Positions 37,258-46,574 of a DNA stretch of 64,000 nucleotides are shown here, one piece after another. Source of the DNA: Janthinobacterium rivuli. GTDB lineage: Bacteria; Pseudomonadota; Gammaproteobacteria; Burkholderiales; Burkholderiaceae_D. Within the stretch, counting starts at the first letter, position 1. Every line of letters starts with the position of its first letter. The stretch spans positions 4,712,001 to 4,776,000 of the forward strand of contig NZ_CP121464.1 in assembly GCF_029690045.1 (NCBI RefSeq). The letters run 5' to 3'. A program made the translations under genes and the position numbers. The notes beneath the pieces were generated by a model. It did no database searches. It saw nothing but the letters and a program-made list of their open reading frames with translations, and was not told the origin of the DNA.

Positions 37258-37875
37258 ATGACTCAGCCTCACCAGAACGATCTGTCCGCCATCGACGCCG
37301 CCACCATCGCCATCAACCAGCGCATGAACAAATTCGACGGCCATGCACAGGTCTGGCTGTTCGGCTATGGCTCGCTGATCTACAAAGCGGACTTTCCCTA
37401 TATTGAACGGCGCCCGGCCAGCATCGCCGGCTGGACGCGGCGCTTCTGGCAAGGCTCGCACGACCACCGGGGCACGCCGATGGCGCCGGGCCGGGTCGCC
37501 ACCATTGTGCCGCAAGCGGGCGCCGTGTGCGACGGCATGGCTTACCTGATCACGCCCGAAGTCTTCGCCCACCTCGACCACCGCGAAAAGAACGGCTATT
37601 TGCGCCTGGCCACCGACATCACCTTCGACGATGGCGGCAAGGTCGAAGGCCTGGTCTACATTGCCAACGAGGAAAACGCCGCCTTCCTCGGCGCCGCCCC
37701 GGAACTCGACATCGCGCGCCAGATCGCCCGCTCTGCCGGCCCCAGCGGCCCGAACAGCGAATACCTGCTGCACCTGGCCAGCGCCCTGCGCGAGCTGGGC
37801 AAGAGCGATCCGCACGTCTTTGCCATCGAGCAACATCTGGCGCAATTGAAGGATGCGCCGCCAGCAGCGCAGTGA
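37258..37875 (+). CDS. ChaC-like gamma-glutamylcyclotransferase
   Basis: 205 aa. The substrate loop VWLFGYGSLIYKADFPYIER and later RFWQGSHDHRGTPMAPGRVA are typical, with the catalytic Glu in LDHREKNGYLRL. ChaC enzymes cleave the gamma-glutamyl bond of glutathione to 5-oxoproline and Cys-Gly. Start 37258 (MTQPHQND) is 29 bp after the LysR stop. It is next to a maleylacetoacetate isomerase that needs glutathione, although on the opposite strand. Confidence 0.9.
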   Translation: MTQPHQNDLSAIDAATIAINQRMNKFDGHAQVWLFGYGSLIYKADFPYIERRPASIAGWTRRFWQGSHDHRGTPMAPGRVATIVPQAGAVCDGMAYLITPEVFAHLDHREKNGYLRLATDITFDDGGKVEGLVYIANEENAAFLGAAPELDIARQIARSAGPSGPNSEYLLHLASALRELGKSDPHVFAIEQHLAQLKDAPPAAQ

Positions 37876-38087
37876 GTGACGGCGGGCAAGCAGCTTGCAT
37901 GATGCAAGCGATGAATATATTTTCATTGTGACAATTGGCGACTATCGCCGTTTTATTAGCGGCCATAATCGGAACGCGCGATTCCTTTATGCATGAGTGG
38001 AGCAACGGTACGCGTCAGCAGGCAGCGGGGCAGAACAAAAAATACGGCCCTGCATGATCGGAGCGAAATCACCGGAGCGAGACGACC
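37876..38087. other. Intergenic region upstream of the sigma-54 activator
   Basis: About 212 bp with no gene. A short perfect palindrome ATTGT-G-ACAAT is at 37925-37935. Half-sites of the same sequence recur at 42510-42528 before the protease gene. No -24/-12 box was found here, so the activator is probably made from a sigma-70 promoter not confidently located. Confidence 0.45.
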
Positions 38088-40490
38088 ATGTCCGAAAGGT
38101 CTATGCTGCAACAGCATGGGAGGCAGCCGCATTGCATGCTTCCCGGAGCAGGCGCTATTGCCCCTGTGCATGTCCCCGTCCACTGCGGCAGCGCCGGGGG
38201 CGGGCTGAACATCATTGGCAGTTCCCCAATATTCCAACGCCTGCTGCGCATGGTCGAAGCCGTGGCGCCGACCCGCTGCACGGTGCTCATCAGTGGCCCA
38301 ACCGGTTCCGGCAAGGAAATCATCGCCCAGCTCGTGCACCGGCACAGCGGCGATCCCGCTGCGCCCTTTGTCGATCTCAACTGCGGCGCACTGCCGGAAC
38401 ACCTGATCGACGCGGAACTCTTCGGCCATACCAAGGGCGCATTTACGGGAGCGCTCAACAGCCGCACCGGGTTCTTCGCCCAAGCGGGGCAAGGCACGCT
38501 GTTTCTCGATGAAATAGGCGAATTGCCGCTAGGTGTACAAAGCAAGCTGCTGCGCGTACTCGAAGCACGCTGTTTCAGGCCACTGGGCGGTGGTGATATC
38601 CAGCCGTTCAACGGCCGCATCGTGGCCGCCACCCACTGCGACCTGGCCGCGATGGTGCAAGCGGGCCGTTTCCGCGAAGACCTGTATTATCGGCTGGCGG
38701 TATTGAAACTCGACGTGCCGGGCCTGGACCAGCGCCGCGGCGACGTCGCCGCCCTCGCCACTCACTTTGCCAGCCTGCAGAAGCGGCCCATCCGCTTTAC
38801 CGCCACCGCCATGGAACGCCTGGGCCGGCATGCCTGGCCCGGCCATATCCGCGAACTGCGCAACCTGGTTGAACGGCTGTCGATACTGGCCGAATCGGCG
38901 CTGATCGATGCCCACAGCCTGGACGCCTTCCTGTCGGCGGGCATGCCTGAAGACGCGGATCACACGCTGCTGGCGGAAGCCCTGATGCGGCTGGAAGGCG
39001 ACAACAAGCTGGAGGCCGCGGAACAATTGCTGATCGACTATGCGATGCGCCTTGCCGATGGCAACAAGACGATCGCGGCGCGCCACCTGGGCATCAACCG
39101 CAAGGTCATCGAACGCCGCGTGCATGGCGACGAGGAGCGCAGCAATTTTGCCCGCGTCTGCCTGCTGGAGGGACGTGCGCTGATCGAGGCGGCCCGTTTC
39201 AAGGAAGCCATCGAAGTATTGCGTCGCGGCCTCACCTTGCTGGCCGCCGACGCCCACCCCTGCACCGCGCGCCGCCTGAGCTGCGACCTGCACCGCTGGC
39301 TCGCCATTTCGCACCGCGGCATCAGCGGCTGGCAAAGCGCCGAAGCGCTCGCCTGCTACCAGCAGGCATTGCAGGAAGCGGCGGCGCTGGGCGACGAGGT
39401 GGAAATCACCGCCCTGCGCTTCGGCATCTGGAGTTCGCAACTGATGGCGCTGGACCTGGTGGCGGCGCGGGCTACGGCGCAAGACATGCTGCAGCGGGCG
39501 CAAGCCATAGGTGACACGGACTTGCTGTCGCAGGCCCATCTGGCCCTGGCCAACACGCTGTTCTGGCTCGGCGATTACCGCGAGACGCTGGCCTGCCTGG
39601 AGCGCGGACACCTGCTATGCGGCGCGGCATCGGCCGACACCGGGGGACAGGGCCTGGACATCGCCGTGCTGTCGAGCACTTTCGAAGGCCTGTCCTGCTT
39701 CCAGAGCGGCGCCTTCCGGCGCGCGCGCCAGGTAATGGACCACCTGGCATTGCGCGGCGGCGCCGACAACCCGCATCCCTTCCATCGCGCCATCGCACTG
39801 CAGGGCGCCGCATGGCTCGCCTGCATGTTCGAGGACTGGAGCCGGCTGGCAAACCTGGCGGCGGACCTGCAAACCGTCGCCAGCGAATATGGCTATCAGT
39901 TCTACCTGGGGGTGGGCCAGATATTCCATGCCTGCGCATTGGCGTCGGGCAACATCCATGTACAGACCGAACAGCGCATCGCCGATGGCTACCAGCAATA
40001 CATGCTGTGCGAAGGCGGCATGCTCTTCCATTCATTCCAGGCCTGGAAACGGGGCGAACTGCTGCTGTCGGCAGGCCAGCCATCGCAAGCCCGGCAACTG
40101 CTGCACGGCGCCATCGAACTGGCGCTGGAACATGGCGAACGGGCCTACCTGGTCGAACTGCTCGACATGCATGCGCAGACGTGGATCGCGGTGGGTGACC
40201 TGGACAACGCGGAACGCGAACTGGGCAGTGCACTGTCGACCGCCAAGGCGCTGGGCGCGATGGCCGGCGGCCTGCTGGTGGCGACCCGCCTGGCGCAACT
40301 GCTGCAGCAGCGCGGACGCCGGCCCGAAGCACTCGAACACCTCACGCGCGCCTTGCGCGGCGTGGAACGTGACACGGCTTTCCCCCGGTTTGCCCAGGCG
40401 CTGCAGTTGCAGACCACCCTGGCGCAAACCATTTCCATGCCATGCCAACCTGAGGATCCGCAACATGAGCTATGTGCTGAATCACGATGA
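38088..40490 (+). CDS. Sigma-54-dependent activator with C-terminal TPR-like region
   Basis: 800 aa. AAA+ domain about 42-285: Walker A ISGPTGSGKEIIAQLVH (69-85), sigma-54-contact GAFTGA (117-122), Walker B TLFLDE (137-142), and RFREDLYYRL (194-203). A Fis-type HTH is at about 316-346 (ADGNKTIAARHLGINRKVIE). From about 350 to 800 come helical TPR-like repeats, probably for sensing or partner binding. There is no N-terminal receiver, PAS or GAF domain. Its 3' end overlaps the next gene by 26 nt. It probably activates the -24/-12 promoter at 42571-42586. Confidence 0.9.
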   Translation: MSERSMLQQHGRQPHCMLPGAGAIAPVHVPVHCGSAGGGLNIIGSSPIFQRLLRMVEAVAPTRCTVLISGPTGSGKEIIAQLVHRHSGDPAAPFVDLNCGALPEHLIDAELFGHTKGAFTGALNSRTGFFAQAGQGTLFLDEIGELPLGVQSKLLRVLEARCFRPLGGGDIQPFNGRIVAATHCDLAAMVQAGRFREDLYYRLAVLKLDVPGLDQRRGDVAALATHFASLQKRPIRFTATAMERLGRHAWPGHIRELRNLVERLSILAESALIDAHSLDAFLSAGMPEDADHTLLAEALMRLEGDNKLEAAEQLLIDYAMRLADGNKTIAARHLGINRKVIERRVHGDEERSNFARVCLLEGRALIEAARFKEAIEVLRRGLTLLAADAHPCTARRLSCDLHRWLAISHRGISGWQSAEALACYQQALQEAAALGDEVEITALRFGIWSSQLMALDLVAARATAQDMLQRAQAIGDTDLLSQAHLALANTLFWLGDYRETLACLERGHLLCGAASADTGGQGLDIAVLSSTFEGLSCFQSGAFRRARQVMDHLALRGGADNPHPFHRAIALQGAAWLACMFEDWSRLANLAADLQTVASEYGYQFYLGVGQIFHACALASGNIHVQTEQRIADGYQQYMLCEGGMLFHSFQAWKRGELLLSAGQPSQARQLLHGAIELALEHGERAYLVELLDMHAQTWIAVGDLDNAERELGSALSTAKALGAMAGGLLVATRLAQLLQQRGRRPEALEHLTRALRGVERDTAFPRFAQALQLQTTLAQTISMPCQPEDPQHELCAESR

Positions 40491-41685
40491 CCTTGAATCG
40501 CTACTGCTGGGAGCTTGCTTCTTCGGCAGCGGTGGCGGCGGCACGCTCACTTCCGCGCGCAGCCTGCTGACCCAATTCCACGCCGGCGATTACTATCCGG
40601 ATGCCCAAGTGCGCGTGGTCAGCGTCGACGAAGCCACCGATGGCGAGACAGTCATGGTGGCTTACCTGGGCTCGCCCGTGGCGATCAATGGCGCCCAATT
40701 TCCGCAAGGTCCCGTCGATGCCGTGATCGCCGTCAGGGAGCGCCTGGCGCTGGAAAACCGCACCCTGGCCTACCTGGCGCCGCCCGAGAGCGGGGCGCTG
40801 GGGTTTCTCGTCGCCTGCCTGGTCGCCGCCCACCTGGGGCTGGCGGTGATCGACGCCGATGGCGCCGGCCGCGCCGTTCCCTCGCTGCCGCAGCTGACGT
40901 ATGCGGCCGAGCAGATTAATCCGCGCCCGGCCTTCCTCGTCAGCCAGTCGGGACTGCGCGTGGAACTCGACGTCCAGCCGAGCCAGGGCGTGAACGGCGC
41001 CCGCGCCCACCAGCAGGACGTGGCAACGATCATCGACCAGATGATGCGCCCCATCGTCTCGCAGGCCGATTTCAAGCAGTTCGGCGGGCTGGCCATGTGG
41101 ATCATGGCGCCGGCGGAACTGGCCCGGGCGCTGCCCGTGCGCGGCACCTTGGGACGCGCCCTGCGCCTGGGCCGCGAACTGCAGGCAGGCCGCTTGCGCA
41201 GCGCGGACGAACTGGTCGACTATCTTGCGCGGCAATGCGACATGCGCGCCTGGGCCCTGTTTCCTCAGGGTACATTCGTCGCCGCCGAAGTCGACTCGCG
41301 CAATGGCTTCGACCTGGGCAAGATCACCATCCGCGCGGGTGAACGGCTATGCACGGTCCTGTACCAGAACGAATCGCTGCTGGCCTGGGATAGCAGCCGC
41401 AGCACGCCCCTCTGCATGGCGCCCGACACCATCAGTTACTTTGTCGAGGGCGATGGCCAGGCCGTGTATTCGAATGGCGACTTGCTGCTGCCTGACGGCA
41501 CACTCAACCCGGCCCTGCTGCAGCGCAAGGTGACGCTGCTGGGCCTGCAAGCCCACCCGGCATTGCGGGAACGGGGCGGCCTGATACTCGACAGCTTCAT
41601 GCAACTGCTCAACACCATCGGCTACCTGGGACCCTATGTGCCGCTGGCGGGCAACGCCGGCGCAGCGGCAGGGAGCGCCGCATGA
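40465..41685 (+). CDS. DUF917 family protein
   Basis: 406 aa. Family marks: the N-terminal glycine-rich FFGSGGGGTLTSARSLL (about 18-34), GALGFLVACLVAAHLGLAVI, DADGAGRAVPSLPQL, and FDLGKITIRAGERLCTVLYQ in the C-terminal half. DUF917 proteins are relatives of hydantoinase/oxoprolinase-type enzymes, including S-methyl thiohydantoin desulfurase. The start ATG at 40465 lies inside the activator gene. It ends 4 nt into the racemase-family gene (ATGA-type). An amide/hydantoin substrate is inferred only. Confidence 0.8.
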   Translation: MSYVLNHDDLESLLLGACFFGSGGGGTLTSARSLLTQFHAGDYYPDAQVRVVSVDEATDGETVMVAYLGSPVAINGAQFPQGPVDAVIAVRERLALENRTLAYLAPPESGALGFLVACLVAAHLGLAVIDADGAGRAVPSLPQLTYAAEQINPRPAFLVSQSGLRVELDVQPSQGVNGARAHQQDVATIIDQMMRPIVSQADFKQFGGLAMWIMAPAELARALPVRGTLGRALRLGRELQAGRLRSADELVDYLARQCDMRAWALFPQGTFVAAEVDSRNGFDLGKITIRAGERLCTVLYQNESLLAWDSSRSTPLCMAPDTISYFVEGDGQAVYSNGDLLLPDGTLNPALLQRKVTLLGLQAHPALRERGGLILDSFMQLLNTIGYLGPYVPLAGNAGAAAGSAA

Positions 41686-42395
41686 AGCCGCTGCGCATCT
41701 GTATCGTGGCGCCGGTGGCCACGGCCGCCTACAACCAGCGCCTGCTCGCCGCCATCGAACCCGTGATGCCGCCCGATGTCGAAGTGTCCGTGCGCAATAT
41801 TTCGAGCGGGCACGACTGCATCGAATACCGGGTCGACTGGCTGCAAAACGGTTATCCGGTGGTGCAACTGGCCAGGGAAATCGAAGGCGAAGGCTATGAC
41901 GGCATCTGGCTCAGCGACTTCGACATGTGCGGCGTGGAGGCCGCGCGCGAAGTGATCGACATCCCCATCCTCGGCGGCTTCCCGCCCGCCGCCTTTACGG
42001 CGCTGGCCCTGAGCCAGCGCCTGTCGATCATGACGATACTGCCCAGCACGCTCGCCATGCAGCGGGGCCACATGCAGGCTTACGGCTTGCAGGACAGCTT
42101 CGCCTCGATCCGTTCCATCGACTGTCCCGTCGCCGACCTCGGCAAGCTGGACACGGTGGTCGAAAAAACTTTCAAGGCCGCCATGCTGGCGATACAGGAC
42201 GACGGCGCCCAGTCCATCCTGCTCGGCTGCACAGGATTTGTCGGCGTCGCCGCGCGCGTCAGCGCGCTGCTGGAGGACGCGCTGCACACCTACGTGCCGG
42301 TGATCGATCCGAACCAGGCAGGCTTCAGCTTCCTGGTGTCCCTCGTGCGCATGCGCCTGCGTCCCAGCCGCGCCTGCTACAGCAAGGATAGCTGA
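41682..42395 (+). CDS. Asp/Glu/hydantoin racemase family protein
   Basis: 237 aa. N-terminal RICIVAPVATAAYNQRLLAA, the first catalytic-type cysteine at about 83 (LSDFDMCGVEAAREVIDIP), and the second at about 183 (ILLGCTGFVGVAARVSALL). Both Cys of the family's two-base mechanism are therefore present. It overlaps the DUF917 stop by 4 nt. The pair DUF917-racemase suggests a hydantoin, lactam or D/L amino acid step. The link to the peptide genes downstream is positional only. Confidence 0.82.
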   Translation: MKPLRICIVAPVATAAYNQRLLAAIEPVMPPDVEVSVRNISSGHDCIEYRVDWLQNGYPVVQLAREIEGEGYDGIWLSDFDMCGVEAAREVIDIPILGGFPPAAFTALALSQRLSIMTILPSTLAMQRGHMQAYGLQDSFASIRSIDCPVADLGKLDTVVEKTFKAAMLAIQDDGAQSILLGCTGFVGVAARVSALLEDALHTYVPVIDPNQAGFSFLVSLVRMRLRPSRACYSKDS

Positions 42396-42469
42396 AGCGC
42401 CGCACGCGCCCGCGTCACGCCATGCGGTGTCCCGGGCGCCCCCTCCCCGTCCTTGCCGCTTGCCGTTTT

Positions 42470-42497
42470 CGTCCATCACGCTCAAAAAGAGTGGACG
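42470..42497. promoter_or_regulatory. Candidate activator site 1 (inverted repeat)
   Basis: CGTCCA ... TGGACG with an inner CTC-AAAAA-GAG. It lies 75-100 bp upstream of the -24 box, the usual distance for an enhancer-binding protein. It could instead be part of the racemase transcript end, but no T-run follows. Confidence 0.4.
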
Positions 42498-42509
42498 ATA
42501 TCCGCCATC

Positions 42510-42528
42510 ATTGTTGCGTCACGACAAT
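42510..42528. promoter_or_regulatory. Candidate activator site 2 (ATTGT/ACAAT repeat)
   Basis: ATTGTTG-CGTCA-CGACAAT, 6 of 7 arm bases pairing. The same half-site sequence forms a palindrome 160 bp upstream of the activator gene (37925-37935). It lies about 45 bp upstream of the -24 box. Confidence 0.35.
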
Positions 42529-42570
42529 GTAAATCAGCGCCATCCCTTGAAAATCAAGCACTTGGCCTTC

Positions 42571-42586
42571 TGGCACACCCCTTGCT
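42571..42586 (+). promoter_or_regulatory. Sigma-54 (-24/-12) promoter
   Basis: TGGCAC-ACCCC-TTGCT matches the established consensus TGGCAC-N5-TTGCW at every conserved position. The start of transcription would fall near 42598, giving a leader of about 95 nt before the GTG at 42692. A sigma-54 activator is encoded 2 kb upstream. Confidence 0.8.
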
Positions 42587-42691
42587 AAAGATCATGCTAT
42601 CGGCGCTAGAGCAACAGGCGCCGCAGCAGGCGGGCGGAGCACCTCAAGCGGTGAGCCGCACGCCCTCCAGGACCCAGCAAGGAGCGCCGCC

Positions 42692-44605
42692 GTGCCGACG
42701 ACCATGGAAGTATCCACCACCCACGACAGTCTGGCCAATCATGGCTTGCTGCCCGGCCTGGCTGCCTTGCAAGATGGCAACACCGGCTGTGCCGACATCT
42801 GCATCGCCGTGCTCGACGGTCCCGTCGATACCAGCCATCCCTGCTTTGCCGGCGCCAGGCTGCAACTGCTCGACACGCTCGCCACGGGTGCCAGCGGCAG
42901 CGGCCGGGCATCGCAACATGGCACCCATGTCGCCAGCATCATCTTTGGCCAGCCCGGCAGCCCCGTCACGGGCCTGGCCCCCCATTGTCGGGGCTTGATC
43001 CTGCCCATCTTTGCCGACCGCGCCGACGGCGCACTGACACAATGCACGCAGCTCGACCTGGCCCGCGCCATCACCCAGGCCGTCGAGCACGGCGCGCACA
43101 TCATCAATGTCAGCGGCGGTGAACTGTCCGACAGCGGCAGCGCCGATGGCCTGCTGCAAAAAGCCATACAGCTGTGCCATGAACGCAACGTCCTGCTGAT
43201 CGCGGCGGCGGGCAATGACGGCTGCGATTGCCTGCATATTCCCGCCTCCATCGAGTACACCCTGGTGGTCGGCGCCCTGGACCGGCAAGGCGCGCCCATG
43301 CCCAACAGCAACTGGGGCGAAGCCTATCGCGCGCGCGGCATCATGGCGCCCGGCACCGACATCCTCGGCGCCGCTGCCGCTGGGCGCGTCCGCGTCAACA
43401 GCGGCACCAGCTTTGCCACCCCGATCGTCTCGGCCATCGCAGCCTTGCTGCTATGCCGGCAACACCAACATGGGGATCGTCCTGACCCTCGTGGAGTTTG
43501 CAGCGCATTGCTGCAGAGCGCAACGCGTTGCAACACCAATGGCGAGCTGGACTGTCGCCGCCTCCTGACTGGGACATTGAATGTGCCGGGCGTCACTCAA
43601 CTATTATTAAAAGGGAAAATTGAAATGTCAGACGATACTGTGATTGAAGCGAGCCCAGCCAATGCCGACACTTCCGCGCAGGCGCATCCGCTCAGCATTC
43701 CCATGCTGGAAACCCCCTCCCCGGCCAACTTCGCGGGCCCTTCCGGCGCGACGCGGCAAGGCATCGGCGCTTCCGGCATCGATGCCTCCGATTGCGGCTG
43801 CGGCGGCGGTGCGGCGAAGGGCCCGACGCTGGTGTATGCGCTGGGCAACCTGGGCATCGACTTCGGCAGTGAAGCGCGCCGCGATTCCTTCGTCCAGGCC
43901 ATGCCACCAGGCAGGGACAATCCTGGCGATCCGCAGCAATTGATCGAATTCCTGCGCGCAAAGCCATATTTCCGCCAATCGCTGACCTGGACCGTCAACC
44001 TGGACGCCACGCCGATTTATGCGATCGTTCCCGTCGGCCCATATGCCGACCTGACCTATGAACTGCTGTTCGAGGCCTATGTCGGCACCATCGATGGCCT
44101 GGTCGTCATGAATTCGTTTCCCGGCGTAATCTCGGGCGCCGCCAGGCTGATGTCCGGCCAGGTCGTTCCCGTGATCCAGCCGGCCATCCGGGGCATGTTC
44201 AGCTGGAATGTGCCGCAGCTGATCGACAGCCTGATGGCGGTGCAGGACAGCCTGGAAATCAACAGCAGCAACACGGGCGCGCGCCTGGAAAACTTCCTGA
44301 ACCGCATCTATTACGACTTCCGCAACCTGGGCGTCACGGGCATGGACCGCGCGCTCAACTTCTCGGCCACGAATGCCATGCAAGCGGCGGAAATGCTGGC
44401 CAAGACCACGGGCATGCAGCTCGATACCATCGTCGTGCAACAGAGCCCTGTCTGCCGCCCGGGCTCCGAATGCTACGACATCATCATGACCTTCTTCAAC
44501 CCGGAAAACCTGCAGGTAGCCAACACGGTCGCCCGCTTCGCCGTCGACGTCAGCGACGTGATACCGGTCAGCGTCGGCGCAGTGCGCTACTGGTCGCAAC
44601 GCTAA
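42692..44605 (+). CDS. PatA/PatG-like (cyanobactin-type) subtilisin protease
   Basis: 637 aa from a GTG with AAGGAG 7 nt before it. The S8 domain is at about 25-260: Asp42 (CIAVLDGPVD), His76 (SQHGTHVASI), oxyanion Asn175 (AAAGNDG) and Ser240 (VNSGTSFATP). A linker (about 300-375) contains SGIDASDCGCGGG. The C-terminal PatA/PatG-type domain begins at VYALGNLGIDFGSEARRDSF (about 381). It has no signal peptide, so it probably acts in the cytosol on peptide precursors. An in-frame ATG with a purine-rich site is at 43625. Two Cys-rich small genes follow. Confidence 0.88.
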   Translation: MPTTMEVSTTHDSLANHGLLPGLAALQDGNTGCADICIAVLDGPVDTSHPCFAGARLQLLDTLATGASGSGRASQHGTHVASIIFGQPGSPVTGLAPHCRGLILPIFADRADGALTQCTQLDLARAITQAVEHGAHIINVSGGELSDSGSADGLLQKAIQLCHERNVLLIAAAGNDGCDCLHIPASIEYTLVVGALDRQGAPMPNSNWGEAYRARGIMAPGTDILGAAAAGRVRVNSGTSFATPIVSAIAALLLCRQHQHGDRPDPRGVCSALLQSATRCNTNGELDCRRLLTGTLNVPGVTQLLLKGKIEMSDDTVIEASPANADTSAQAHPLSIPMLETPSPANFAGPSGATRQGIGASGIDASDCGCGGGAAKGPTLVYALGNLGIDFGSEARRDSFVQAMPPGRDNPGDPQQLIEFLRAKPYFRQSLTWTVNLDATPIYAIVPVGPYADLTYELLFEAYVGTIDGLVVMNSFPGVISGAARLMSGQVVPVIQPAIRGMFSWNVPQLIDSLMAVQDSLEINSSNTGARLENFLNRIYYDFRNLGVTGMDRALNFSATNAMQAAEMLAKTTGMQLDTIVVQQSPVCRPGSECYDIIMTFFNPENLQVANTVARFAVDVSDVIPVSVGAVRYWSQR

Positions 44606-44759
44606 CGTCAACAGCATTTGAATTGTCGGGGCACGTGGGCGCAGCGATGCGTGCACGCGCTTCAGCATACGGTCGTTGGCGGGAAACGATCAGCACCGTA
44701 CTTCGGTACGCACACCCATTGCCGCTGCCCGCGGCGGCGCCACCACAAGGAGTTTCGAA

Positions 44760-44936
44760 ATGAACAATCTGCCATTGCAAGCCAAAGCCGTACAACGCAG
44801 CCCCAGCATCTCCGCCATCAGCCAGGGTGTCGCCCCTTCCGGCATTGCCTGCACCCTGTGCCAAATGGGTTGCAGCGCTTTGAGCGGCACCGCAAAGCAA
44901 CTCTGCCTGATGGCTTGCAACGCCACCGTTTGCTGA
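44760..44936 (+). CDS. Cys-rich small peptide 1 (candidate RiPP precursor)
   Basis: 58 aa from ATG at 44760 with AAGGAG (44747-44752). The N-terminal MNNLPLQAKAVQRSPSIS is a leader-like stretch. The C-terminal core from about 28 has six cysteines at 31, 34, 38, 49, 53 and 58 (CTLCQMGC ... CLMACNATVC). It shares LPLQ-x3-V-x-RS with peptide 2 and follows the protease by 154 bp. Not similar to any family recognised here. It is proposed as a substrate of the protease; this is inference. Confidence 0.75.
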   Translation: MNNLPLQAKAVQRSPSISAISQGVAPSGIACTLCQMGCSALSGTAKQLCLMACNATVC

Positions 44937-45048
44937 TCAAGCCAGCAGGATCGAGCCATCCCGGCTAAACCCGGCATGCCTGCGGGCGATGAGTGTCTCG
45001 TCGCCCGTTCAGCCAGCCGGCGTCACCCACGATTGAGGAAGGACAGCG

Positions 45049-45297
45049 ATGCGACTCCCACTACAAAGCCCGCCTGTTTCGCGCAGCGCGCGTGGCCCTA
45101 TCAACGCACAAGCCAACGTACAAGCCAGCGGCATGCAGCCGTCCGCCTGCGGACCGACCAACACGGGCCAAGGCCAGTGCTTCGATACACACGGGCCGAT
45201 AGGCGGACCGACAGCCCATAATTGCAGCGCCTGCTGCGCCCGGCGCGGCGCGATTCATTGGCAAGGCGTGAATGGCACCTTTGCCATCTGCCACTGA
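45049..45297 (+). CDS. Cys-rich small peptide 2 (candidate RiPP precursor)
   Basis: 82 aa from ATG at 45049 with GAGGAAGGA 7 nt before it. MRLPLQSPPVSRSARGP carries the same LPLQ-x3-V-x-RS motif as peptide 1. The C-terminal part has six cysteines at 34, 44, 59, 62, 63 and 81 (ACGPTNTGQGQC, NCSACCARR, FAIC). It is longer and more Gly/Thr/His-rich than peptide 1. The shared N-terminus with a diverged core is the usual precursor pattern. It is tandem with peptide 1, 112 bp apart. Confidence 0.75.
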   Translation: MRLPLQSPPVSRSARGPINAQANVQASGMQPSACGPTNTGQGQCFDTHGPIGGPTAHNCSACCARRGAIHWQGVNGTFAICH

Positions 45298-45383
45298 GCA
45301 CCGATTCCGCTCGCCAGATTCCCGCCTCCTGCCCTCTGCCGGAAGCGGGAACTGCATTGACCGCAGTCCGGTCACGCCATGCG

Positions 45384-46574
45384 CTAGAACAAATCCAGCT
45401 GTCCCGCATTCCCCCCTTTTACCTTGATTCCCAGCGGCGGCACCACCAGCGGCCGGCGGAACTGCGTGCAATCGAGCTGCTTGAAGCGGCCGCCCTTGCC
45501 GTGCAGCCCCAGCCGGTGCACGGCCTTTTCAAAACGCTGGCGGATGAGGTCGGCCCACACGCCTTCGCCCCGCATGCGCGCGCCGAACGCGCTGTCGTAA
45601 TCCTTGCCGCCACGCATTTCGCGCACCCGGTTCATCACGCGCTGGGCCCGTTCCGGGAAGTGCGCTTCCAGCCATTGCTGAAACAAGGGACTCACTTCCC
45701 ACGGCAGGCGCAGCACCACGTAATGGGCGTGGATGGCACCCGCGTCGCGCACGGCTTCGAGCAGCTGTTCGATTTCCGGCTCCGTCACGAACGGGATGAT
45801 GGGCGCAATGCTCACGCCCACGGGAATGCCCGCCTCCGTCAGGGTGCGGATGGTGCGCAGGCGCCGTGCCGGGGCGGCCGCGCGCGGTTCCAGAGTACGC
45901 GCGATGGCCGGGTCAAGCGTGGTGACAGTCACGGCAACGGCTGCCAGGCGCTTGGCCGCCATGGGCGCCAGAATGTCGATGTCGCGTTCGATCAACGACG
46001 ATTTCGTGATCAGCGCCACGGGATGGTCGCACTCGTGCAGCACTTCCAGCACGCGCCGCGTCAGCTGCCGTTCGCGTTCGCACGGCTGATACGCATCGGT
46101 ATTGACGCCCAGGGCGATCGGTTCGGGCACATACGAGGGCCTGGCCAGTTCGCGCCGCAACAGTTCGGGAGCGTTCACCTTGGCGTAGATGCGGCTTTCG
46201 AAGTCCAGGCCCGGCGACAGGCCCAGATAGCTGTGCGTGGGGCGGGCAAAGCAATAAATGCAGCCATGTTCGCAGCCGCGATATGGGTTCAGCGAGACGT
46301 TGAACGGCAAATCGGGCGAAGCGTTGCGCGTCAGGATGGTGCGCGCCTGCTCGTCGCTGACCTGCGTCTTCCAGCCCGGCGCCGGCGCCTCACCATCTGC
46401 CGCATCCAGGCCGCCCACGCTCCAGCCATCATCAAAACCGGCGCGCGCGTGCACTTCGTAGCGCCCCTGCAGGTTCGAGACGGCACCGCGCCCCTTGTGC
46501 GCTTTCAGCGATTGCGGCGGCAACATGGCTTGCCCGGCGAAGCTGTCATCATGCTCTGGAATGATTGCTTTCAT
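45384..46574 (-). CDS. PA0069-family radical SAM protein (SPL-like)
   Basis: 396 aa. The [4Fe-4S] motif C-x3-C-x2-C is seen in YRGCEHGCIYCFARPTHSYL, followed by DFESRIYAKVNAPELL and VNTDAYQPCERERQLTRRVL. The C-terminal part has GEGVWADLIRQRFEKAVHRL. It resembles spore photoproduct lyase-like radical SAM proteins. Start 46574 (MKAIIPEHDD) is preferred because the longer frame starts inside a LexA box. Transcription under LexA suggests a DNA-damage role, which is inference. It is convergent with the peptide 2 gene. Confidence 0.88.
   Translation of the reverse strand: MKAIIPEHDDSFAGQAMLPPQSLKAHKGRGAVSNLQGRYEVHARAGFDDGWSVGGLDAADGEAPAPGWKTQVSDEQARTILTRNASPDLPFNVSLNPYRGCEHGCIYCFARPTHSYLGLSPGLDFESRIYAKVNAPELLRRELARPSYVPEPIALGVNTDAYQPCERERQLTRRVLEVLHECDHPVALITKSSLIERDIDILAPMAAKRLAAVAVTVTTLDPAIARTLEPRAAAPARRLRTIRTLTEAGIPVGVSIAPIIPFVTEPEIEQLLEAVRDAGAIHAHYVVLRLPWEVSPLFQQWLEAHFPERAQRVMNRVREMRGGKDYDSAFGARMRGEGVWADLIRQRFEKAVHRLGLHGKGGRFKQLDCTQFRRPLVVPPLGIKVKGGNAGQLDLF

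Follow-up and report, generated by a model that had tools for sequence, protein, structure and literature searches.

Cyanobactin pathways such as those for patellamide and anacyclamide combine a PatA-type protease bearing a domain of unknown function (DUF) with precursors whose N-terminus is of PatE/PatB type and is followed by a PatA-like cleavage site. Disulfide-containing class II bacteriocins and microcins likewise come from short tagged precursors, whose leader is removed by a double-glycine peptidase to leave a Cys-paired core. Here we describe a locus in Janthinobacterium rivuli, contained in a 64-kb stretch (NZ_CP121464.1, positions 4,712,001 to 4,776,000; hereafter the window), that shares all three features with the cyanobactin pathways. 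We propose, with a probability of roughly two in three, a minimal ribosomal-peptide system here: a PatA-type protease would free two disulfide-paired, Cys-rich cores from tagged precursors. Unlike the cyanobactin pathways, its six genes include no PatD, no PatF and no PatG-type macrocyclase, its peptides carry neither LAELSEE nor AYDG, its predicted cores are long with an even number of cysteines, and its host is not a cyanobacterium. Unlike the class II bacteriocins and microcins, it would rely on a PatA-type subtilase for leader removal. Among the papers listed in a search of titles and abstract openings, with subscription papers and preprints outside its scope, none deals with a PatA-type protease standing alone beside tagged peptides rich in cysteine.

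The protease and the two window peptides

Between positions 38088 and 45297 the gene order is activator, DUF917 protein, racemase, sigma-54 site, protease and two six-Cys peptides, and every part listed in an initial annotation of the window was found where that annotation had placed it. The protease and peptide features are as follows.

42692..44605, plus strand: PatA-type subtilase, comprising an S8 domain (Asp42, His76, Ser240), a linker, PatG_D and PatG_C (the cyanobactin DUF)
43625..43627, plus strand: possible in-frame internal start, Met312 (MSDDT...), of a putative free DUF-half protein
43760..43801, plus strand: protease linker GIGASGIDASDCGC, with PatA-like site(s) and then CxC
44760..44936, plus strand: peptide 1 precursor, 58 aa, with tag LPLQAKAVQR (residues 4-13) and putative site GVAPS (23-27)
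45049..45297, plus strand: peptide 2 precursor, 82 aa, with tag LPLQSPPVSR (residues 3-12) and putative site GMQPS (28-32)

The protease belongs to TIGR03895, scoring 624.5 bits against a curated cut-off of 421.05. Peptidase_S8, PatG_D and PatG_C are all matched, the latter two above cut-off, and D42, H76, N175 and S240 sit in subtilase contexts and do not vary across an alignment of 40 sequences. The Asp/His/Ser triad and C-terminal DUF expected of TIGR03895 members are thus both present, in agreement with the initial annotation of a cyanobactin-type subtilisin protease with complete triad. The nearest solved structures are a PatA-type N-terminal protease (4h6w, E 9e-99) and the PatG DUF (4uvq, 3e-58), followed by the PatG macrocyclase (4aks, 1.7e-41). 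Because the PatA-type structure and the PatG DUF are closer than the macrocyclase, the window protease is, by relationship, probably a leader-cutting enzyme. Cyanobactin clusters pair an A protease with a macrocyclase G; the J. rivuli genome yields a single match at E < 1e-40 for PatA-type protease. It is also the only one among 399 drawn genomes of its order to exceed the TIGR03895 cut-off, and relatives in the protein database fall from a 94% match to Undibacterium (60%), a metagenomic protein (56%) and named cyanobacterial proteins (about 50%). The protease of locus L162, from a different genus within the family, is just 43% identical, which fits horizontal spread; it stands side by side with a homologue of peptide 2 (53% identity), as would be expected if protease and peptides belong together. 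A further PatA-type protease (L161:8624-9919), in one more genome of this family, stops early in the DUF (431 aa), has no tag peptide nearby and is perhaps decayed.

The two small peptides are each preceded by a Shine-Dalgarno-like sequence and have the N-terminus LPLQ(A/S)xxVxR in common, as the initial annotation had noticed. That annotation also held that a PatE-like precursor was missing, a claim that no longer stands: both peptides have a PatE/PatB-type start followed by a PatA-like site. Its predicted core start near residue 28 is retained for peptide 1, where GVAPS ends at 27, and that for peptide 2 moves from 31 to 33, since GMQPS ends at 32. The predicted cores are thus 31 aa (GIACTLCQMGCSALSGTAKQLCLMACNATVC) and 50 aa (ACGPTNTG...AICH), with six cysteines each. 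The peptide 1 core has the spacing Cx3C-x10-Cx3C, which we take to resemble that of alpha-hairpinins.

Within Janthinobacterium, peptide 1 homologues are found at 90% identity, and its six cysteines are conserved in the window and in genomes G030, G026 and G005. Diverged homologues of peptide 2 are 58 and 62% identical. Raw counts of changed codons relative to the window (synonymous/non-synonymous) are 13/3 in G026, 10/3 in G005 and 1/1 in G512 for peptide 2, which speaks for purifying selection. For peptide 1 they are 1/4 in G030, 4/5 in G026, 3/6 in G005 and 3/4 in G512; non-synonymous changes exceed synonymous ones against each of these four relatives, and there is no sign of purifying selection in these counts.

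Neither window peptide scores above cut-off against the cyanobactin precursor models TIGR03678, TIGR04446 and NF042906. Peptide 1 has no NCBIfam match at E up to 10, and the only one for peptide 2 is TIGR04220 (PatB) over residues 1-12 at E 0.12. The peptide 1 core does, however, share 57% identity (E 2e-13, tiny database) with the tag peptide of L066, encoded next to an Alteromonadaceae protease, and that peptide matches TIGR04446 at E 1.9e-4, under the cut-off. The best direct tie between the window and cyanobactin precursors runs in two steps, from peptide 1 to the L066 peptide and from there to TIGR04446.

Tagged Cys-rich peptides beside related proteases

The motif scan covers 79 loci, taken from the best 80 of 438 relatives in a search with each species represented by one genome. 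Fifty-eight loci are full-length, a single open reading frame (ORF) encoding both protease domain and DUF, and the other 21 serve as comparison. A fixed motif, LP.Q...[VI].R, was derived solely from the two window peptides and scanned with ATG, GTG and TTG starts. It matches 40 small ORFs, spread over 25 of the 58 full-length loci; 38 of these ORFs share their strand with the matched protease, and the comparison loci have no match. The comparison loci are mostly other subtilases, and five (L110, L113, L116, L121 and L126) are relatives that are cut off, frameshifted or incomplete; L121 has a DUF ORF and also a tag ORF, which escapes the fixed motif only by having nine instead of eight residues before LP.

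These counts bear on the possibility that the enzyme serves housekeeping or the stress response, with the small ORFs unrelated to it. Many loci without a tag peptide, and the loss of peptide 2 in one carrier genome, would fit that explanation. We consider it very unlikely, because three dinucleotide shuffles gave one match in all (0.33 per set against 40, about a hundredfold difference), because almost all tag ORFs follow the strand of the protease, and because the 3.5 kb behind the protease hold 39 tag ORFs in forward and 3 in reverse orientation (ATG starts only, leaving out the 18 of 58 loci where a YcaO or PatF-like gene is present).

The tag is often followed by a cleavage-like sequence. 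In the 30 aa behind the tag, G[VIL].[AP]S, the pattern of a PatA-like site, is found in 10 of 38 fixed-motif peptides, a set that leaves out two LAEL-containing PatE-like peptides, against 0.27 in residue shuffles. In a wider set of tag peptides the count is 14 of 42 against 0.32, or 12 of 39 without the two window rows and L162. Known cyanobactin components have a similar beginning: the precursors of L075 and L079 (TIGR03678) share the tag-type start, a P-x-Q-x-x-P-V-x-R stretch opens the precursors of L075, L079 and L078, and PatB of L080 and L084 (TIGR04220, E 7e-40 and 2e-36) begins with the same tag.

Several observations weigh against the proposal that the protease matures tagged precursors. 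No fixed-motif ORF is present in 33 of the 58 full-length loci, and even the looser site occurs only in a minority of tag peptides. PatA-like enzymes are reported to cleave after G(L/V)E(A/P)S (PMC10885120), and this exact form is found in just 3 of the 42 peptides, all from L072 and L073. The window sites deviate from it in having A or Q for E and, in peptide 2, M for L/V. PatB has the tag with no recognizable cleavage site, so the tag need not mean cleavage. In PMC4259220, the PatG DUF showed no binding to PatE' by nuclear magnetic resonance, so leader reading is at most a candidate role for the DUF. Peptide 2 has been deleted in G030, one of five genomes that carry the block, and none of the six window genes encodes a transporter, an ABC exporter included.

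The cysteines themselves help to separate the possible fates of the cores. Genes grouping as YcaO (representative matching PF02624 at E 1e-102) are present in 12 of 61 loci, and those of a DUF5838 group (PF19156), which we take to be the PatF prenyltransferase family, in 10 of 61. Of the 58 full-length loci, 40 have neither in the examined flank. In 18 of the 40, a tag ORF containing two or more cysteines lies no farther than 3.5 kb downstream (in L084 this is PatB); the other 22 have none, a further point against the proposal. Cyanobacteria, Pseudomonadota and Planctomycetota all contribute to these 18 loci, as does one bin each under the names Clostridia and Chitinophagaceae. Misbinning may lie behind single phyla, but five of the 18 records (L067, L072, L084, L087 and L094) are not labelled as metagenome-assembled genomes, which rules it out as the cause of the spread among cyanobacteria and to Aquibium. 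Certain cores recur in distant hosts: beyond the peptide 1 type in Alteromonadaceae, one core is common to Calothrix and Aquibium and another to cyanobacterial and alphaproteobacterial bins, each at 50% identity.

Among wider-set peptides of these 40 loci with at least two cysteines after the tag, the number is even in 31 and odd in none (Fisher p 2e-5 against other small ORFs). A plain binomial p was dropped, the other small ORFs with at least two cysteines being themselves 286 even and 129 odd; those with 4-12 cysteines are 89 even and 37 odd (p 1e-4). Since other small ORFs lean even at low counts, we rely on the comparison at five or more cysteines, where tag peptides are 23 even and 0 odd and other small ORFs of the same loci 31 even and 37 odd. 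Parity is counted behind the tag, and 3 of the 42 peptides hold one extra Cys inside it (two in L099, one in L114); one L072 peptide has four cysteines behind the tag and three behind the predicted site. An even number points to disulfides and not azoles, as pairing would favor even counts and heterocycle formation would not.

One alternative is that the window peptides undergo azole or macrocyclic, cyanobactin-like maturation by enzymes encoded elsewhere in the genome. Their leaders resemble PatE, and each of the five locus-bearing Janthinobacterium genomes has one YcaO gene. That gene, the only YcaO in the J. rivuli genome, lies about 390 kb from the locus, which upholds the earlier statement that no local cyclodehydratase is present; the YcaO family is also matched in E. 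coli and four control archaea, and it is absent from the L162 genome (68% complete). No azole or prenylation gene, which cyanobactin clusters often but not invariably have, was found at the locus itself, the search for PatF not being genome-wide, and no AYDG-like C-terminal signature is seen behind the cores. Together with the even cysteine number, this makes such maturation quite improbable.

A second alternative accepts the cysteines as functional, with the peptides binding metal in the manner of metallothioneins or metallophores instead of forming disulfides. Even counts suit metal sites too, CxC pairs occur in some cores (L069, L070 and L098), and a metal-related role has been proposed for patellamides (PMC13266932). 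Neither window core contains CxC, and we regard metal binding as unlikely for them. We thus favor disulfide-paired cores released by the PatA-type protease.

The sigma-54 module and the Janthinobacterium insertion

Upstream of the protease lie genes that appear to control the locus, and the whole block is bounded as a unit.

37846..45384, no strand assigned: insertion carrying the whole block, absent from protease-less Janthinobacterium loci
38088..40490, plus strand: sigma-54 activator with AAA+ domain, lid, Fis-type HTH and TPR-like C-terminal half (domain matches)
40465..41685, plus strand: DUF917 / S-Me-thiohydantoin-desulfurase-like protein (S-Me-THD_N/C matches)
41682..42395, plus strand: Asp/Glu/hydantoin racemase superfamily protein (domain match)
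42571..42586, plus strand: near-consensus sigma-54 promoter TGGCACACCCCTTGCT (exact pattern match, -24/-12 conservation)

The full protease is present in 5 of 40 Janthinobacterium genomes, and the same five also carry the activator, with at least 91% identity. The ChaC-like and radical-SAM genes of the flanks adjoin in all eight of the protease-less loci compared (L170-L177), the closest relatives as judged by flanking gene, and in a DNA-level comparison with four of these loci window positions 37844-37845 and 45385-45388 map 71-200 bp apart. From this comparison, the six-gene block is best read as one insertion, gained or lost jointly.

Domain matches (Sigma54_activat, AAA lid, HTH_8, TPR) support the activator as initially annotated, while the DUF917 protein scores far under NCBIfam equivalog cut-offs. 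The promoter is the sole exact TGGCACN5TTGCW in the 64-kb window, with 0.20 expected. We rejected it as significant by itself, 18 of 100 shuffles having at least one match. Its -24/-12 elements are conserved in all five Janthinobacterium loci and the genome has an RpoN gene, so the earlier call of a near-consensus site stands. A -24/-12 site, RpoN and an enhancer-binding protein are thus all present, as in sigma-54-controlled operons, and use of the site is predicted.

The activator, DUF917 protein and racemase were also considered as peptide-maturation genes. This was rejected: in a tblastn search of 82 loci (the 79 searched loci plus L161, L162 and L032), only the Janthinobacterium row L032 has them. 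The same three genes are present in G020 and G658, where no protease was found. In G020 they have the same order (48, 61 and 74% identity for activator, DUF917 protein and racemase), a near-consensus sigma-54 site TGGCACGCCGCTTGCT behind the racemase, and amine-oxidase, lipoxygenase and TPP-enzyme genes downstream; in G658 (52, 65 and 74%) there is a weaker site only, and other genes follow. The trio stands before unrelated operons, at 38088-42395 in the window, at L164:8325-12664 and at L167:2182-6354. With the order shared and the outputs behind it differing, these genes appear to be a portable regulatory module set before different outputs, and the switch an add-on to the protease locus. 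The initial annotation had suggested an unusual peptide system with its own switch. The sigma-54 site agrees with this; the arrangement itself recurs in several phyla, and the switch belongs to a separate portable module.

In the mechanism we propose, the activator module would switch on the operon from 42571, and the protease would recognize the precursors via the N-terminal LPxQ...VxR tag. Cleavage would follow G-hydrophobic-x-(P/A)-S, freeing cores of 31 and 50 aa, each with three disulfides, no heterocycles and no macrocycle. The cores would most likely be small extracellular peptides with an antagonistic or signalling role. The basis for this is gene content, tag, site, even cysteine number, recurrence across phyla and joint gain or loss, all read from sequence; the bond cleaved, the role of the tag, the disulfides, sigma-54 dependence, export and activity are what we infer. 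Tag peptides free of cysteine occur in Oscillatoria (L072:10368-10800) and Okeania (L073:11116-11283), where GVEAS is followed by 24-25 residues that look amphipathic by eye, like membrane-active peptides. Such cores would favor an antagonistic role.

Possible self-processing and a proposed origin of cyanobactin pathways

The protease may itself be a substrate. The window linker between S8 domain and DUF reads GIGASGIDASDCGCGGG, and a PatA-like site with CxC to CxxxC behind it occurs in 24 of 74 protease linkers (four Janthinobacterium near-copies included) against 0.07 in shuffles. An in-frame ATG, often encoding MSEE or similar, lies 8-15 codons past the S8 domain in 39 of 71 genes, compared with 157 of 947 eight-residue windows elsewhere in linkers; this set leaves out three near-copies of the Janthinobacterium gene, and its rows are related. 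A Shine-Dalgarno match of at least 5 nt precedes 21 of those 39 against 10.1 under synonymous shuffles, and one of at least 4 nt precedes 51 of 66 residue-filtered linker ATGs against 91 of 604 other internal ATGs. The match at Met312 in the window is weak (4 nt) and stronger in many homologues. We treat the internal start as a candidate, since part of the Shine-Dalgarno excess follows from the amino acids and the rows are related. PatG_D/PatG_C-like ORFs without a protease domain are found in Janthinobacterium G002 and G024.

L034:8278-9177, minus strand: free-standing DUF ORF, N-terminus MHDEQGTPGIGAS
L035:10978-12000, plus strand: free-standing DUF ORF, N-terminus MNDEQGTPDD

These begin MHDEQ or MNDEQ, like the internal start of the full-length gene, and neither L034 nor L035 has a tag peptide near the DUF-only ORF. 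Linker sites, internal ATGs and free DUF ORFs together make self-processing and a second, DUF-half product plausible. A free DUF half made from the internal start would include a PatA-like site and a CxC of its own, in which case the enzyme would also process itself.

A maximum-likelihood tree of 66 rows, midpoint-rooted and leaving out rows with a DUF match below 200 residues, places all 23 rows from YcaO or PatF-like loci inside a 37-row clade (support 100/98), whose other 14 rows have neither label. This clade is nested in one of 40 rows (100/100), the remaining rows being the tag-peptide loci L072, L073 and L097, the last placed with support 93/78. A root outside the 37 rows would make the azole and prenyl pathways derived, nested among simpler loci; as the root is a midpoint root, we offer this as a proposal. 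It suggests that the elaborate cyanobacterial pathways are a special case of a wider protease and tagged-peptide system. A broader and more tentative extension, which we hold to be possible but on balance doubtful, is an old, phylum-crossing system in which the PatA-type protease serves any LPxQ...PVxR-tagged core, its gene has two products and processes itself, cyanobactins are one branch and PatB, a protein that has long lacked an assigned function, is a tag-bearing partner of common descent. The cores served would be disulfide-rich peptides, the Cys-free cores of L072 and L073, PatB and, later, PatE with azoles or macrocycles.

A protease annotated for cyanobactins would, through a single leader motif, give a handle on many gene-encoded Cys-rich peptides in proteobacteria, planctomycetes, cyanobacteria and others. 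Two-component loci of this kind would allow PatB, the reading of the leader and the function of the DUF, which the 2014 structure paper left unassigned, to be studied apart from azole and macrocyclase steps, and the origin of the cyanobactin pathways becomes a testable question.

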